Positions 42,332 to 48,266 of a stretch of DNA of 48,266 bases are shown here, piece by piece; position 1 is the first letter of the stretch; each line of letters begins with the position of its first letter. A program made the position numbers and the translations under genes. Under the pieces are notes generated by a model. It worked only from the letters and a program-made list of their open reading frames with translations, was not told where the DNA came from and made no database searches. This stretch comes from Melioribacter roseus (GTDB lineage: Bacteria; Bacteroidota; Ignavibacteria; Ignavibacteriales; Melioribacteraceae): NCBI GenBank assembly GCA_020726285.1, contig DYSW01000003.1:94990-143255 (forward strand), given 5' to 3'.

Positions 42332-43735
42332 ATGCAAAACAAATTTGATTTAGCAATTTTAGGCGGAGGTCCAGCGGGATATGTTGCCGCAATTCGAGCT
42401 TCGCAACTTGGTTTTAATACGATAATAATTGATAAAAGTACACTTGGTGGAGTTTGCTTGAATTGGGGTTGTATTCCAACAAAAGCTCTGTTAAAAAGTG
42501 CTGAATATTTTGATATTTTAAAAAATAGAGCAAATGAATTTGGAATTATTGCCGAAAATGTAGATTTCGATTTCAAAAAGATAATTAAACGAAGTAGGGA
42601 AGTTTCAACGCGAGTTTCAAAAGGTGTGGAATTTCTGATGAAAAAGAACAAAATTACTCACGTAAAAGGTTTTGGACGATTCCGAGATAAAAATTCAATC
42701 GAAATAATTGATGATAATGGAAACGTCACCGAAATAGTAAATTTTGATAAAATCATTATTTCAACTGGAGCTTCGCCAATTCTTCTTCCTAATATTCCCG
42801 TAGATAGAAAAAATATAATCACAAGTCGAGAAGCACTTCAACTTGATAAATTGCCTAAAGAAATGATAATTATTGGAGCCGGAGCAATTGGCGTTGAGTT
42901 TGCTTATTTCTATTCAACTTTGGGCACCAAAGTTACAATTATAGAAATGAAAGATAAAATCGTTCCGAATGAAGATTCTGAAATATCAGATTTGCTTGAA
43001 AAAACATTCAAGAAGAAAGGAATTTCAATTTTTACGTCAACAAAAGTGGACAAAGCCGAAGTTAAAAATGGAAAAGTAGAAGTTTCAATCGAAAAAAATG
43101 GAAAATCTCAAATTTTGCAATCCGAAGTTGTATTAAATGCAATTGGTGTAAAAGGAAATATTGAAGGATTTGGCTTAGAAAAAATTGGTTTAAAAACAGA
43201 AAAAAGCTCAATTATGGTTGATAAAAGCACATTTCAGACAAACGTTGATGGAGTATTTGCCGTTGGCGATGTTATTGGTCCGCCATTTCTTGCTCACGTT
43301 GCTTCAGCCGAAGCGATATCTTGCGTAGAAAAAATGAAAGGAATTCACACAATTCCAATTGACTACAACTCAATTCCAGCTTGCACTTACACAAATCCGC
43401 AAATAGCAAGTATTGGATTTTCTGAAGAAAAAGCAATTTTGCAAGGTTACAAAGTGAAAGTAGGTAAATTTCCATTTTCTGCAAGTGGAAAAGCAACTGC
43501 AATTGGCGAAAGAGAAGGTTTTGTGAAACTGATTTTTGATAAAGAATATGGCGAATTGCTCGGAGCTTCCATAATTGGAGCAGAAGCGACAGAATTGATT
43601 GCCGAACTTGGAATTGTGAAGTCGCTCGAAGGAAATTACGAATCAATTCTAAAAACAATTCACGCACATCCAACCTTATCGGAATCGATAATGGAAGCTG
43701 CAGGAAATGCTTATGACGAAGCAATTCACATTTGA
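42332..43735 (+). CDS. lpd: Dihydrolipoyl dehydrogenase (E3)
   Basis: The flavoprotein that reoxidises dihydrolipoyl groups of E2 and reduces NAD+. At 467 residues it has the usual length. It starts with the FAD-binding GGGPAGYVAA (11-20), has the redox disulfide Cys42/Cys47 in GGVCLNWGCIPTKAL, an NAD-binding IIGAGAIGVEFA, the second FAD motif VFAVGDV and the C-terminal catalytic His in HAHPTLSESIMEA. Its end overlaps lipB. It heads lpd-lipB-E1-E2, so it is dedicated to, or shared with, that complex. Confidence 0.97.
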   Translation: MQNKFDLAILGGGPAGYVAAIRASQLGFNTIIIDKSTLGGVCLNWGCIPTKALLKSAEYFDILKNRANEFGIIAENVDFDFKKIIKRSREVSTRVSKGVEFLMKKNKITHVKGFGRFRDKNSIEIIDDNGNVTEIVNFDKIIISTGASPILLPNIPVDRKNIITSREALQLDKLPKEMIIIGAGAIGVEFAYFYSTLGTKVTIIEMKDKIVPNEDSEISDLLEKTFKKKGISIFTSTKVDKAEVKNGKVEVSIEKNGKSQILQSEVVLNAIGVKGNIEGFGLEKIGLKTEKSSIMVDKSTFQTNVDGVFAVGDVIGPPFLAHVASAEAISCVEKMKGIHTIPIDYNSIPACTYTNPQIASIGFSEEKAILQGYKVKVGKFPFSASGKATAIGEREGFVKLIFDKEYGELLGASIIGAEATELIAELGIVKSLEGNYESILKTIHAHPTLSESIMEAAGNAYDEAIHI

Positions 43736-44450
43736 GGAAAAGATTCAAAAAACAATTACATATTGTAATTTGGGTTTAATGCCTTATTCCGATGCGTGGG
43801 AATTGCAGAAAACGTTGTATCAAATGCGGTTGGAAAAGAAAATATCAGATATTCTTTTGCTTTTAGAACACCCGAACACTTACACTTTGGGAAAATCTGC
43901 AAACGAAAAAAACATTATCGGAAGTGAAGAATTTCTACGAAAATGGGATTTTAAGATTTTCAATATCGACCGCGGTGGCGATGTTACTTATCACGGTCCT
44001 GGACAAATCGTTGGTTATTTAATTTTCGATTTGAACGACTGGCAGCATGATTCCCACAAATATTTGCGATTGATTGAAGAATCGATTATCCAAACTTGTG
44101 AAAAATATAATCTTGCAACTGGAAGAAAAGAAAAATACACAGGTGTTTGGATTGAAGAAAGAAAAATCTGTGCTATTGGAGTAAAAATAAGTAGATGGAT
44201 TACAATGCACGGTTTTGCATTAAACGTAAATACAAATCTCAATTTGTTCAAAGGAATTATTCCATGTGGAATAAACGATAAAGATGTAACTTCGCTCGAA
44301 AGGGAATTAAATAGAAAATTTGATATCGAACAAGTTAAAATTGAACTAAGTGAACAAATTAAGAATCTATTCCAGTTTGATGAAGTAAATGAAATATCAA
44401 AAAATGAACTTTTTGATAGAATTAATGGAGAAAAAAATGAAGAAATTTGA
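43713..44450 (+). CDS. lipB: Lipoyl(octanoyl) transferase
   Basis: Moves octanoyl groups from acyl carrier protein to lipoyl domains, the first step of de novo lipoylation. From the ATG at 43713 it has 245 residues; this start has AGGA 7 bp upstream, while the ATG at 43707 is only 1 bp from it. RGGDVTYHGPGQIVGY, Lys158 in CAIGVKISRWITMHGFALN and the catalytic Cys185 in IPCGINDKDVTSL are the family hallmarks. It overlaps lpd by 23 bp and E1 by 14 bp. Its position inside the operon links attachment of the cofactor to synthesis of the complex. LipA is not in the window. Confidence 0.96.
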   Translation: MTKQFTFEEKIQKTITYCNLGLMPYSDAWELQKTLYQMRLEKKISDILLLLEHPNTYTLGKSANEKNIIGSEEFLRKWDFKIFNIDRGGDVTYHGPGQIVGYLIFDLNDWQHDSHKYLRLIEESIIQTCEKYNLATGRKEKYTGVWIEERKICAIGVKISRWITMHGFALNVNTNLNLFKGIIPCGINDKDVTSLERELNRKFDIEQVKIELSEQIKNLFQFDEVNEISKNELFDRINGEKNEEI

Positions 44451-46458
44451 AAAATTAAAAAATAAACAATTACTTAAAATTTTAGAAGAAATGTTGTTTT
44501 CGCGAACGTTCGATTACAAAATTATGAACTTGCTCCGACAAGGAAAAGCAAGTTTTCTGATTGCTGGTTCTGGACACGAAGCCATTCAAATAGCAATGGG
44601 AAAAATTCTTAAACCAAAACTCGATTGGGCTTATCCATATTATCGCGATATGGCTTTTATGTTGGCTTTGGGACAAACTCCGCAAGATGTAATGTTGCAA
44701 ATGTTAGGAAAAGCCGATGACCCAGCAAACGGCGGAAGACAAATGCCAAATCATTATGGAAGTAAGGAGTTTAACGTTCCTTCGCAATCTTCGCCAACCG
44801 GAACGCAGTTTTTACAAGCAGTTGGAACTGCATTAGCATTTCAGAAAATTGGTGAAAATCGTATTGTTTACGTAAGTTCTGGCGATGGAACAACAAGTCA
44901 AGGTGAATTCCACGAAGCAGTAAATTGGGCTTCTCGCGAAAAATTGCCTGTAATTTTCGTAATTCAAAATAACGGTTGGGCAATTTCAGTTCCAGTGCAA
45001 AATCAAACAGCGGGAAAAGATTCTTCAATTGTTGAGATGATGAAAGGTTATGAAAATCTGTTGCGAATCAAATTTGATGGAACAGATTACGTAGAATCGT
45101 GGGAAGTTGCACAAAAAGCATATCAATACGCTGAAAGTGGAAAAGGTCCAGTTTTATTAGAAGCAGAAGTTGTACGTTTACTTTCACATTCATCTTCTGA
45201 TGATCAAGGAAAATATCGACCGAAAGATTCGCTTGAAGCTGACTTAAAACGCGATCCAATTCTGAAAATAAAGCATAAATTATTATCTGAAAATGAAATA
45301 ACAGAAGAAGATTATCGCAATCTCGAACAAAAAGTTAAACAAGAAATTGATGAAATTGCAGATTGGGCTTTATCTCAACCAGATCCAATTGCCGAAACTG
45401 CCGAAAGATTTGTTCTTGATGAAAGTGGTTTAGCTGAAAGTTTGGAATATGAAAAATCTATTCCAAATGGAAATAAAGTTGTGATGGTTGATGCAATAAA
45501 TCACGCACTTCACGAAGAAATGGCAAAAAACGAGAGAATTTACGTATTTGGGGAAGATGTTGCCGATGGAAAAGGTGGAGTTTTTACGGCAACAAAAGGT
45601 TTGTCGAACAAATTTGGTGAAACAAGAGTTTTCAATTCGCCATTAGCTGAAGCAAGTATTGAAGGAGTTGCAACGGGAATGGCATTAACTGGTTTGAAAC
45701 CTTGCGTCGAAATTCAGTTTGCTGATTATATTTGGCCTGCTTTTATGCAAATGAGAGATGAACAAGTTACTTATCGTTATCGCTCGAATAATGTTTGGAA
45801 ATCGCCAGTTGTAACACGCGTTCCTGTTGGTGGATTTATAAACGGCGGACTTTATCACAGTCAGACAATTGAAGGAATATTTGCACATTTGCCTGGAATT
45901 TTGATTGCTTATCCATCAAATGCTTCTGACGCAAAAGGTTTGCTGAAAACTGCTCTTCGGTTAGATGACCCTGTTCTTTTCCTCGAGCACAAAGCACTTT
46001 ATCGCCAATCTTATGCTTCTTCGCTTGAACCAGACGAAAATTATCTTTTACCATTTGGCAAAGCAAATATTTTTAGAGATGGAACTGATTTAACAATTGT
46101 TACTTACGGTGCAATGGTTCACGAATCAAATTTTGCAGCTAAAAAACTAGCCGACGAAGGATATTCTATTGAAATTGTCGATATTCGAACAATCTTTCCG
46201 CTAGATAATGAATCAATATTCAATTCGATAAAGAAAACGGGAAAAGTTGCAATTATTCACGAAGATACATTAACTGCTGGTTTTGGAGCAGAAATATCCG
46301 CAAGAATTTCAGAATTTGCTTTCGAATTGTTAGATGCTCCAATCAAAAGAATTGCCGCAAAGGACACTTTTATTCCATATCACACAAATTTAGAAAGAGC
46401 AATTTTGCCAACGCGAGATAGAATTTTTAACGAATTGAAATCACTTTTAGCATATTAG
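44437..46458 (+). CDS. 2-oxoacid dehydrogenase E1, fused alpha and beta subunits
   Basis: The thiamine-diphosphate-dependent decarboxylase of the complex. The ATG at 44437 follows GGAG by 6 bp, giving 673 residues. Residues 1 to about 335 form the alpha half, with GDGTTSQGEFHEAVNW (149-164) and QNNGWAIS (177-184) as the ThDP/Mg2+ motif. Residues from about 345 form the beta half, with VFGEDVADGKGGVF, SPLAEASIEGVATGMALTG and HEDTLTAGFGAEI. The fusion is common in Bacteroidota and Chlorobi and most resembles branched-chain E1, but pyruvate is not excluded. It lies between lipB and E2. Confidence 0.9.
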   Translation: MKKFEKLKNKQLLKILEEMLFSRTFDYKIMNLLRQGKASFLIAGSGHEAIQIAMGKILKPKLDWAYPYYRDMAFMLALGQTPQDVMLQMLGKADDPANGGRQMPNHYGSKEFNVPSQSSPTGTQFLQAVGTALAFQKIGENRIVYVSSGDGTTSQGEFHEAVNWASREKLPVIFVIQNNGWAISVPVQNQTAGKDSSIVEMMKGYENLLRIKFDGTDYVESWEVAQKAYQYAESGKGPVLLEAEVVRLLSHSSSDDQGKYRPKDSLEADLKRDPILKIKHKLLSENEITEEDYRNLEQKVKQEIDEIADWALSQPDPIAETAERFVLDESGLAESLEYEKSIPNGNKVVMVDAINHALHEEMAKNERIYVFGEDVADGKGGVFTATKGLSNKFGETRVFNSPLAEASIEGVATGMALTGLKPCVEIQFADYIWPAFMQMRDEQVTYRYRSNNVWKSPVVTRVPVGGFINGGLYHSQTIEGIFAHLPGILIAYPSNASDAKGLLKTALRLDDPVLFLEHKALYRQSYASSLEPDENYLLPFGKANIFRDGTDLTIVTYGAMVHESNFAAKKLADEGYSIEIVDIRTIFPLDNESIFNSIKKTGKVAIIHEDTLTAGFGAEISARISEFAFELLDAPIKRIAAKDTFIPYHTNLERAILPTRDRIFNELKSLLAY

Positions 46459-46467
46459 GAGAAAAAA

Positions 46468-48021
46468 ATGATCGAAAAAATTTTAATGCCCAAAATGGGC
46501 GAAAGTGTGATGGAAGGAACAATCATCAAATGGCACAAAAAGATTGGGGAATCTGTAAAAAAAGATGAAATTCTCTTTGAAATTAGCACAGATAAAGTTG
46601 ATACCGAAGTTCCATCGCCAGTTGATGGAATTCTAAAAAAAATTGTATTGAATGAAAACGAAACAGCCGAAGTAAATACAATTGTGGCAGAAATCGAAAC
46701 TGAATCTCAATTGCCAATTTCAAATGCCAAATTACATATTATCAATGAGCAATTTTCTATTAATAATGAATCAACACAACTGACCGACAACCAATTACAA
46801 ATAATTGAAATTCCAATGCCCAAAATGGGCGAAAGTGTGATGGAAGGAACACTTATCAAATGGCACAAAAAGATTGGGGAATCTGTAAAAAAAGATGAAA
46901 TTCTCTTTGAAATTAGCACAGATAAAGTTGATACCGAAGTTCCATCGCCAGTTGATGGCTTTTTGGATGAAATTTTAGTTGAAGAAAATCAAACTGCAGA
47001 AGTTGGAGTAATTATTGCGAAAATCTCAACTTCACAAACTGAAAAAACACAATCACATCAAACAAAAATTACTAATGAACAATTGCAAATTACAAATTCC
47101 AAATTACCATTGACAAACAGATTTTATTCTCCAGTTGTTTTAAATATTGCACAAAAAGAAGGAATTTCATTCAAAGAAATTGAAAAAATTCAAGGAACTG
47201 GAATACAAGGTAGAGTAACGAAAAAGGATATACTAAATTACCTCGAAAATCGTGAAAATTTGCCAAAAGATGAAAATCAACAAACTGCAAGCCAATTCCA
47301 AATTACGAATAGCAAATTGGAAACAACTGAAATTCCTATGGATAATATTCGTAAGAAAATTATGAATCACATGATTGCCAGTCGCAATATTTCTGTTCAC
47401 GTTTCCGAAGTGATGGAAGTTGATATGACTATAATTCATAATTTCATCAATCATAATCGAGAAAAATTCCAATCTGAAGGAATAAAACTCACATACATGG
47501 CATTTATTTCATTTGCTGTTGCAAAAGCGCTAAAGAAATACCCGTTGATGAATTCATCGTTAAATGTGGAAAAGATAATTCAGAAAAATTCTGTAAATCT
47601 TGGGATTGCCGTTGCAGTTGAACCAAATGGTTTGATTGTTCCGAACATAAAAAGTGCCGAAAATCTAAATATTCGTGGTATGGCAAAATCAATTTCTGAG
47701 TTGAGTTCAAAAGCGAGAACCAAAAAACTTTTACCAGATGATGTTGTTGATGGAACTTTTTCCATAACAAATTATGGTGTTTTCGGTGCATTATTTGGAA
47801 CTCCGATAATTAATCAGCCTGAAGTTGGAATATTGGGAGTTGGAGCAGTTGTAAAACGCGTTGTTGTTTTAGAAACTGAAATTGGCGACCAAATTGCAAT
47901 AAAACCGATGATGTATTTGTCATTAAGTCACGACCATAGACTTGTAGATGGAATGTTGGGCGGAATGTTTCTAAAAGAAGTGAAAGAAATCCTTGAAAAA
48001 TTTGATGTTAAGAATGTTTAG
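46468..48021 (+). CDS. 2-oxoacid dehydrogenase E2 (dihydrolipoyl acyltransferase) with two lipoyl domains
   Basis: The core acyltransferase of the complex, 517 residues. Lipoyl domain 1 is residues 3-78 (lipoyl lysine Lys43 in STDKVDTE) and lipoyl domain 2 is 113-188 (Lys153). The peripheral-subunit-binding domain is about 220-260 (FYSPVVLNIAQKEGI and GTGIQGRVTKKDIL), and the catalytic domain runs from about 286 with His490 and Asp494 in SHDHRLVDG. Three linkers (about 79-112, 189-219, 263-287) are Gln/Asn/Ile-rich and share a repeated peptide. The start has AGGAG upstream and the gene follows E1 by 9 bp. Substrate type is as uncertain as for E1. Confidence 0.95.
   Translation: MIEKILMPKMGESVMEGTIIKWHKKIGESVKKDEILFEISTDKVDTEVPSPVDGILKKIVLNENETAEVNTIVAEIETESQLPISNAKLHIINEQFSINNESTQLTDNQLQIIEIPMPKMGESVMEGTLIKWHKKIGESVKKDEILFEISTDKVDTEVPSPVDGFLDEILVEENQTAEVGVIIAKISTSQTEKTQSHQTKITNEQLQITNSKLPLTNRFYSPVVLNIAQKEGISFKEIEKIQGTGIQGRVTKKDILNYLENRENLPKDENQQTASQFQITNSKLETTEIPMDNIRKKIMNHMIASRNISVHVSEVMEVDMTIIHNFINHNREKFQSEGIKLTYMAFISFAVAKALKKYPLMNSSLNVEKIIQKNSVNLGIAVAVEPNGLIVPNIKSAENLNIRGMAKSISELSSKARTKKLLPDDVVDGTFSITNYGVFGALFGTPIINQPEVGILGVGAVVKRVVVLETEIGDQIAIKPMMYLSLSHDHRLVDGMLGGMFLKEVKEILEKFDVKNV
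46485..46628 (+). repeat. Internal direct repeat, lipoyl domain 1 copy
   Basis: 144 bp that recur at 46815-46958, offset 330 bp in the same frame. The only differences I see are two bases in one codon (46522 and 46524; Ile versus Leu). It spans the first two thirds of the lipoyl domain including the lysine codon. Confidence 0.9.
46708..46734 (+). repeat. 27-bp linker repeat, copy 1
   Basis: Begins CAATTGCCAATTTC and encodes QLPISNAKL in the first E2 linker. It aligns without gaps with the copies at 47080 and 47293. Confidence 0.65.
46815..46958 (+). repeat. Internal direct repeat, lipoyl domain 2 copy
   Basis: Second copy of the 144-bp repeat at 46485. Sequence before it and after GTTGATGG (46951-46958) is not conserved between the domains. 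Confidence 0.9.
47080..47106 (+). repeat. 27-bp linker repeat, copy 2
   Basis: Begins CAATTGCAAATTAC and encodes QLQITNSKL in the second E2 linker. It differs from copy 1 at about four positions. Confidence 0.65.
47293..47319 (+). repeat. 27-bp linker repeat, copy 3
   Basis: Begins CAATTCCAAATTAC and encodes QFQITNSKL in the third E2 linker. Each of the three linkers carries one copy. Confidence 0.65.
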
Positions 48022-48080
48022 GATCACTATTGTCCGATAAAAATAAAAAAATGAGAGAAAATCTTTCGCTAACAGCTGAA

Positions 48081-48096
48081 ATCCGCCGCGGCGGAT
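48081..48096. repeat. GC-rich 16-bp perfect palindrome
   Basis: ATCCGCCGCGGCGGAT is self-complementary and very GC-rich in an AT-rich region. It is followed directly by GGAATGACG, the 9-mer also found in R2 and, shifted by one base, in R1. This looks like a dispersed intergenic repeat element and not a terminator, since no T run follows. Confidence 0.6.
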
Positions 48097-48157
48097 GGAA
48101 TGACGTAACTTAAAAATATTTTCTTAAGTTGACAGCATTGTTTTGTAAACTCAACAG

Positions 48158-48196
48158 GGGAGTATTCAATTGCCAAATGATGCTCCCTATATTTTT
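48158..48196 (+). terminator. Putative terminator of the 2-oxoacid dehydrogenase operon
   Basis: GGGAGTATT (48158-48166) pairs with GATGCTCCC (48179-48187) with two G-T pairs, around a 12-nt loop, followed by TATATTTTTTATT. It lies about 137 bp after the E2 stop. Confidence 0.65.
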
Positions 48197-48198
48197 TA

Positions 48199-48229
48199 TT
48201 TGACAAACTGGTTTTTTTTATTAAATTTG
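48199..48229 (+). promoter_or_regulatory. Bacteroidetes-type promoter, perfect consensus
   Basis: TTTG (48199-48202), exactly 19 bp, then TAAATTTG (48222-48229) match TTTG-N19-TAnnTTTG at every position. It lies just after a terminator-like hairpin and 29 bp before an ATG, so the context is right for initiation near 48236. Confidence 0.65.
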
Positions 48230-48258
48230 GTTAGTGATTATTAACTAACAAGTGAATT

Positions 48259-48266
48259 ATGACAAC
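48259..48266 (+). CDS. Possible start of the next gene, truncated by the window edge
   Basis: An ATG at 48259 stands 29 bp after a perfect promoter match, with AAGTGAATT just before it. Only two full codons (Met-Thr) are inside the window, so nothing can be said about the product. Confidence 0.35.

Follow-up and report, generated by a model that had tools for sequence, protein, structure and literature searches.

Why do the two lipoyl domains encoded by one E2 gene of Melioribacter roseus carry 144-bp stretches that are almost the same, while the rest of each domain and the flanking linkers have diverged? An earlier note on this DNA had read the pattern as recent gene conversion or slipped duplication confined to the lysine-bearing part, and had proposed the locus as a site of copy-number change or assembly collapse. 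The window (the whole 48,266-nt stretch analysed here) belongs to a 2.06-Mb draft genome of 140 contigs (G000), and its last genes are lpd, lipB, a fused E1 gene and the E2 gene:

42332-43735, + strand: lpd (E3), operon partner of E2
43707-44450, + strand: lipB, operon partner of E2
44389-46458, + strand: fused E1 alpha-beta, operon partner of E2
46468..48021, + strand: E2 gene, dihydrolipoamide acyltransferase, 517 aa (ORF, Pfam and NCBIfam sucB TIGR01347)

The E2 product contains, in order, two Biotin_lipoyl domains, E3_binding and 2-oxoacid_dh (Pfam, each above its gathering score), with TDKV in both lipoyl domains and SHDHRLVDG in the catalytic domain, which we take to be the lipoyl-lysine DK motif and the DHRxxDG catalytic motif respectively. 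It scores 392 against NCBIfam sucB TIGR01347 (cut-off 379), and the adjoining E1 matches as a PDH E1, with a score under the cut-off. By domain content this is a 2-oxoacid dehydrogenase E2 of the ordinary two-lipoyl-domain kind, with domains inherited from family ancestors. No second full E2 was found in the window genome, the sole other match spanning 60 residues at 30% identity; the sister genome (G001) carries a second, distant E2 (L041, 36% identical), as do many relatives. The contig stops 245 bp past E2 and the sister contig stops 7 bp past its own E2; the stretch 3' of E2 (48022-48266) was checked for being a repeat and has no second copy in the assembly.

Each of the lipoyl domains (D1 and D2) divides into a core and a tail:

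46485..46628, + strand: D1 core, probable donor; 142 of 144 bases equal to 46815-46958, dS to the sister D1 core like that of the rest of the gene
46629..46701, + strand: D1 tail, unconverted; D1-like by profile, 8 of 72 bases different from the sister D1 tail
46815..46958, + strand: D2 core, probable recipient; D1-D2 core dS 0.037
46959..47031, + strand: D2 tail, unconverted and of ancestral D2 type; D2-like by profile, 28 of 72 bases different from the D1 tail

When the gene was compared with itself at a lag of 330, the sole mismatches within 46485-46628 were at 46522 and 46524, both in a codon that reads ATC (Ile) in D1 and CTT (Leu) in D2 (46852-46854), and the first mismatches outside the tract were at 46484 and 46629. 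The 24-codon tails share 61% of their bases, and the linkers around the two domains are unlike each other. All 42 codons for residues identical between the cores match, versus 23.7 expected from operon codon usage (chance of a 42/42 match ~1e-12, as the product of per-codon probabilities). Thus the earlier description stood in full: two stretches near-identical over 142 of 144 bases with both mismatches in one codon, identity at every other comparable synonymous site, and diverged tails and linkers. The identity of the cores is far above chance or shared constraint. The differing codon was considered as an unconverted relic of the old D2, which is unsupported: Leu at this codon occurs in the window's own D2 and in no other of 122 D2 domains, versus 34 of 122 D1 domains. 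It may reflect two later changes in the one codon or a different donor allele, and tells against the conversion reading given below.

Is such identity common among relatives? Searching 164 genomes of the order Ignavibacteriales gave 140 matches to the C-terminal part of E2, of which 138 were examined (G044 and G048 were left out, their E2 matches lying at contig ends). By the lipoyl domain HMM, 122 of the 138 carry two domains and 16 carry one; G043 and G104 among the latter are cut by a contig end and were excluded from the single-domain count, leaving 14 true single-domain genes among 136 fully readable ones. Three lipoyl domains were found by this HMM in none of the 138 genomes, a third motif seen in G007 being unconfirmed by it. 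G062, in which a contig end truncates the first domain, was kept in the core comparison (122 genes) and stood outside the re-pairing and profile tests (121 genes); L043 and L044, the same sequences as G136 and G112, belong to the 84-row set used for tail identity and codon usage and were left out of the 138.

Among the 122 two-domain genes the window ranked first in: i) core identity (0.986; the other 121 had a mean of 0.746, sd 0.043 and maximum 0.901, with tails averaging ~0.59); ii) synonymous-codon identity of the cores (1.00; others mean 0.527, sd 0.095, maximum 0.78); iii) the longest exact D1-D2 run (104 nt; next 50, 38 and 35 nt). It alone had every comparable synonymous codon identical, and the runner-up was G002, of the same genus. 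The comparison of copy number and within-gene identity among relatives, which the earlier note had called for, thus found two domains in 122 of 138 genomes and the highest identity in the window. The shorter exact runs elsewhere suggest older conversion patches. D1-D2 core identity within a genome was also ~2 percentage points above that of domains re-paired between genomes (reached by 0 of 2000 GC-matched re-pairings), and the tail showed a similar small excess (reached by 4 of 2000 re-pairings for amino acids and by none of 2000 for DNA). As the re-pairing test ignores kinship and the tail excess is similar, these figures hint weakly at a general concerted evolution of lipoyl domains in the order.

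When did the cores become identical? Between the window and its sister, dS was 0.371 in the D1 core, 0.389 in the catalytic part and 0.378 over the whole gene, versus 0.037 between the D1 and D2 cores of the window. With a tenth of the sister distance separating the two cores in the same codons, their identity postdates the split, at sites that are free to change. This bears on a constraint at the nucleotide level, by which a regulatory or RNA element would hold both cores identical, an idea that might draw on the core being more conserved than the remainder of the domain in every relative. Yet the D1 core departs from that of the sister at 8 of 42 synonymous codons, and in the other 121 two-domain genes a mean of only 53% of such codons agree between the two cores; the sister comparison contradicts such a constraint unless it is new to this lineage, and we give it next to no chance.

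The tails date the second domain itself. The D2 tail is D2-like by profile (+15.0 in one scoring, +9.8 in another), its dS to the D1 tail is 1.13, and 28 of 72 bases separate these two tails whereas the D1 tails of window and sister are 8 of 72 apart, so that D2 predates the sister split. A slipped or tandem duplication, in which a single-domain E2 like that of the sister gained D2 by copying D1, would account for the near-identical cores and for the single D1-type domain in the sister, but the copied unit should then have a young tail and linker, whereas the D2 tail is old and of D2 type, and two domains are present in 122 of 138 relatives, G002 and G003 of the same genus included. We regard this half of the earlier proposal as extremely improbable and have set it aside.

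An artefact of assembly, with the two copies collapsed or falsely made alike, deserves a hearing in a 140-contig draft, since assemblers can stumble over exact repeats of 104 nt. However, the copies keep their codon difference, which means that they were resolved separately, as well as distinct flanks on both sides; moreover two domains are the family norm, and none of the 138 genomes has three. Such an artefact is therefore very unlikely, and the suspicion of assembly collapse in the earlier note found no support.

Recent gene conversion of the lysine-bearing core, after the sister split, is in our judgement highly probable, and this reading of the earlier note, with its restriction to the lysine-bearing part, is well supported by codon identity, dS and rank among the 122 genes. 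Tested for gene conversion, the pair combined silent identity above the paralogue norm, silent sites free to change and a recipient flank that is older. The gene would have started as an E2 with two lipoyl domains, inherited from family ancestors; after the split, a tract of 144 bp or more, the core of one domain, would have overwritten its counterpart, most likely D1 onto D2. The agent would be homologous recombination within or between gene copies, presumably of RecA type, and the outcome two nearly equivalent lipoyl arms. In the window genome no other close E2 was a candidate donor. The tract ends where D1-D2 similarity drops in relatives too, as is expected if conversion needs homology.

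The direction D1 onto D2 appears most likely, as D1 is as far from the sister D1 as the rest of the gene is. Conversion in reverse, D2 onto D1, draws on amino-acid profiles: in a leave-one-out test the D1 cores of the window, G002 and G003 and the single domain of the sister were D2-like, with D1 tails that were D1-like. However, the divergence of the D1 core from the sister D1 equals the gene average, so that no surplus of a paralogous kind can be accommodated unless the two cores were already alike at the split, and we consider the reverse direction unlikely. The D1 and D2 cores of the genus may already have been alike before the sister split, which makes the direction uncertain. D2-like D1 cores also occurred in two sets of tree neighbours (G036, G145, G151 and G156; G030, G121 and G122). 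Overall, D2-like scores fell to 14 of 121 D1 cores and to 5 of 121 D1 tails, and these five tails all lie outside the sets named. The profiles suggest, short of proof, older core-only conversions from D2 to D1.

What became of the same gene in the sister? Its E2 product is 423 aa long and has a single lipoyl domain, whose tail marks that domain as D1-type, and relative to the window the gene lacks one stretch:

46792..47079, + strand: 288 nt (96 codons) absent in the sister G001 (alignment and junction)

The deletion is in frame and clean, with ends at 46792 in CAATTACAAAT and at 47080 in CAATTGCAAAT, one in each linker and alike at 10 of 11 bases; both sit in the degenerate heptanucleotide repeats of which the linkers of this lineage consist. 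Had an assembler collapsed the 144-bp repeat, the D2 tail would now follow directly on the D1 core; the sister keeps the D1 tail and linker 1, which speaks for a real event, and the missing D2 reads as a true deletion there. The locus is thus a site of copy-number change, as the earlier note had suggested, by way of short linker repeats and not of the 144-bp repeat.

On a tree of the E2 C-terminal part (FastTree only), the distribution of the 14 single-domain genes calls for 10 changes, six or more of them on well-supported branches, with gain and loss indistinguishable by count. Tail scores point to retention of D1 in G001, G010, G102 and five members of genus g19, and of D2 in G094 and G157; those of G017, G118, G140 and G155 favour neither. 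In the C-terminal part itself (47321-48018), the window shows 11 changes from the family consensus versus 3 in the sister (27 unpolarised), and a branch of 0.19 versus 0.036; this part seems to have evolved faster in the window.

The deletion ends direct attention to the linkers, identified by lag-7 self-match and pattern matches:

46702..46807, + strand: linker 1, from a degenerate 7-bp repeat (CAATTRC-like)
47032..47121, + strand: linker 2, with a CAATTGCAAATTACAAATTCCAAATTACC array
47238..47329 (approximate ends), + strand: linker 3, with a CAATTCCAAATTACGAATAGCAAATT array

Lag-7 self-match over the window linkers was 0.487 versus 0.327 in codon shuffles (z 5.9), and the z values for the sister, G002 and G003 were 5.0, 0.2 and 0.0 respectively. 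The linker peptides of the window and the sister (QLPISNAKL, NEQLQITNSKLPLTN and similar) are such as a 7-bp repeat of the CAATTRC kind yields, and all three inter-domain linkers appear to derive from it. A first lag-7 scoring covered 56 of 84 genes, the linker motifs not being located in the others; a second covered all 138, of which four had z > 4. After G120 (a run of N) was discarded, these were the window, the sister and G040, whose heptamer differs (GCATCCA-like). CAATTRC-like E2 linkers were thus confined, among the 138 genes, to the window species and its sister. Between these two, linker 1 had dN 0.14 and dS 0.19 and linker 3 had dN 0.23 and dS 0.34, versus dN 0.009 in the D1 core; the linkers change in amino acids nearly as fast as at silent sites, unlike the D1 core.

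The repeat is spread beyond E2. The window genome contains 53 matches to the test pattern (six of them in the E2 gene) versus four for the control pattern in reverse, and pattern matches outnumbered those of the control in each of the eight further genomes scanned, which argues that short arrays are common in the family. Twenty other array sites of the window genome were read. L106:549-590 and L107:261-300 are in-frame arrays (NYQLSIINYQLPSG) within the C-terminal tails of two further proteins, tails that are alike and may be of the type IX secretion kind, which they resemble; L104, L105, L111 and L117 have no covering frame of 100 codons; the remaining sites are loose pattern matches within ordinary frames, on either strand.

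Thus in two sister genomes the same E2 gene appears to have met two fates since their split, its arms being homogenised in one and one arm deleted in the other. This is ordinary repeat turnover, here unusually clear, and it warns that lipoyl-domain trees can be disturbed by conversion. With arm number having changed independently six or more times in one set of orthologues, the order offers natural experiments on why E2 has one, two or three lipoyl domains. As a tentative and rather doubtful extension to the Ignavibacteriales, the lysine-bearing core might be a recurrent conversion module while the tail keeps arm identity, and the heptanucleotide arrays of the linkers might be joints for arm loss that help set arm number.

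How does the locus compare with known systems? A literature search, with most subscription journals outside its reach, returned no report of lipoyl-domain gene conversion, and a search on lipoyl-domain number, linker deletion, heptanucleotide or tandem repeats and intragenic conversion returned no report of this case. Experiments deleting or adding lipoyl domains in E. coli have been published. Like the window E2, E. coli AceF has tandem similar lipoyl domains in one gene, joined by flexible linkers, with cores more alike than tails (82-90% versus 71-79% identity among its three domains). However, its cores share at most 33 of 40 synonymous codons, whereas those of the window share all comparable ones and are 98.6% alike; and the window linkers, derived from a 7-bp repeat, are not Ala-Pro-rich, unlike those of multi-lipoyl E2s such as AceF. 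The three-domain region is matched in 5373 of 5426 E. coli genomes, in all 5373 over at least 80% of its length. E. coli strain 463, the weakest among the matches listed, has a shortened aceF (566 aa; L123:1501-3201) in which D2 runs into mid-D3, and this may be a natural deletion or an assembly slip. Across species, lipoyl domain number in E2 is given as varying from one to three (PMC6270654).

The window arrays share a 7-bp period, degeneracy and short length with STRR-like short heptanucleotide repeats, a label that comes from cyanobacteria, and are likened to them by form alone; the strand of the repeat used in E2 reads without stops in every frame. Unlike those, they occupy in-frame positions in each of the three linkers of a central enzyme. 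Gene conversion among internal repeats is well known as an event, and the enzyme is a familiar one; the mildly new elements are the linkers of heptanucleotide origin and the core-only pattern with its recurrence. As in concerted evolution of internal repeats elsewhere, a homogenised tract is bounded by loss of similarity and set between older flanks, with no difference in principle.
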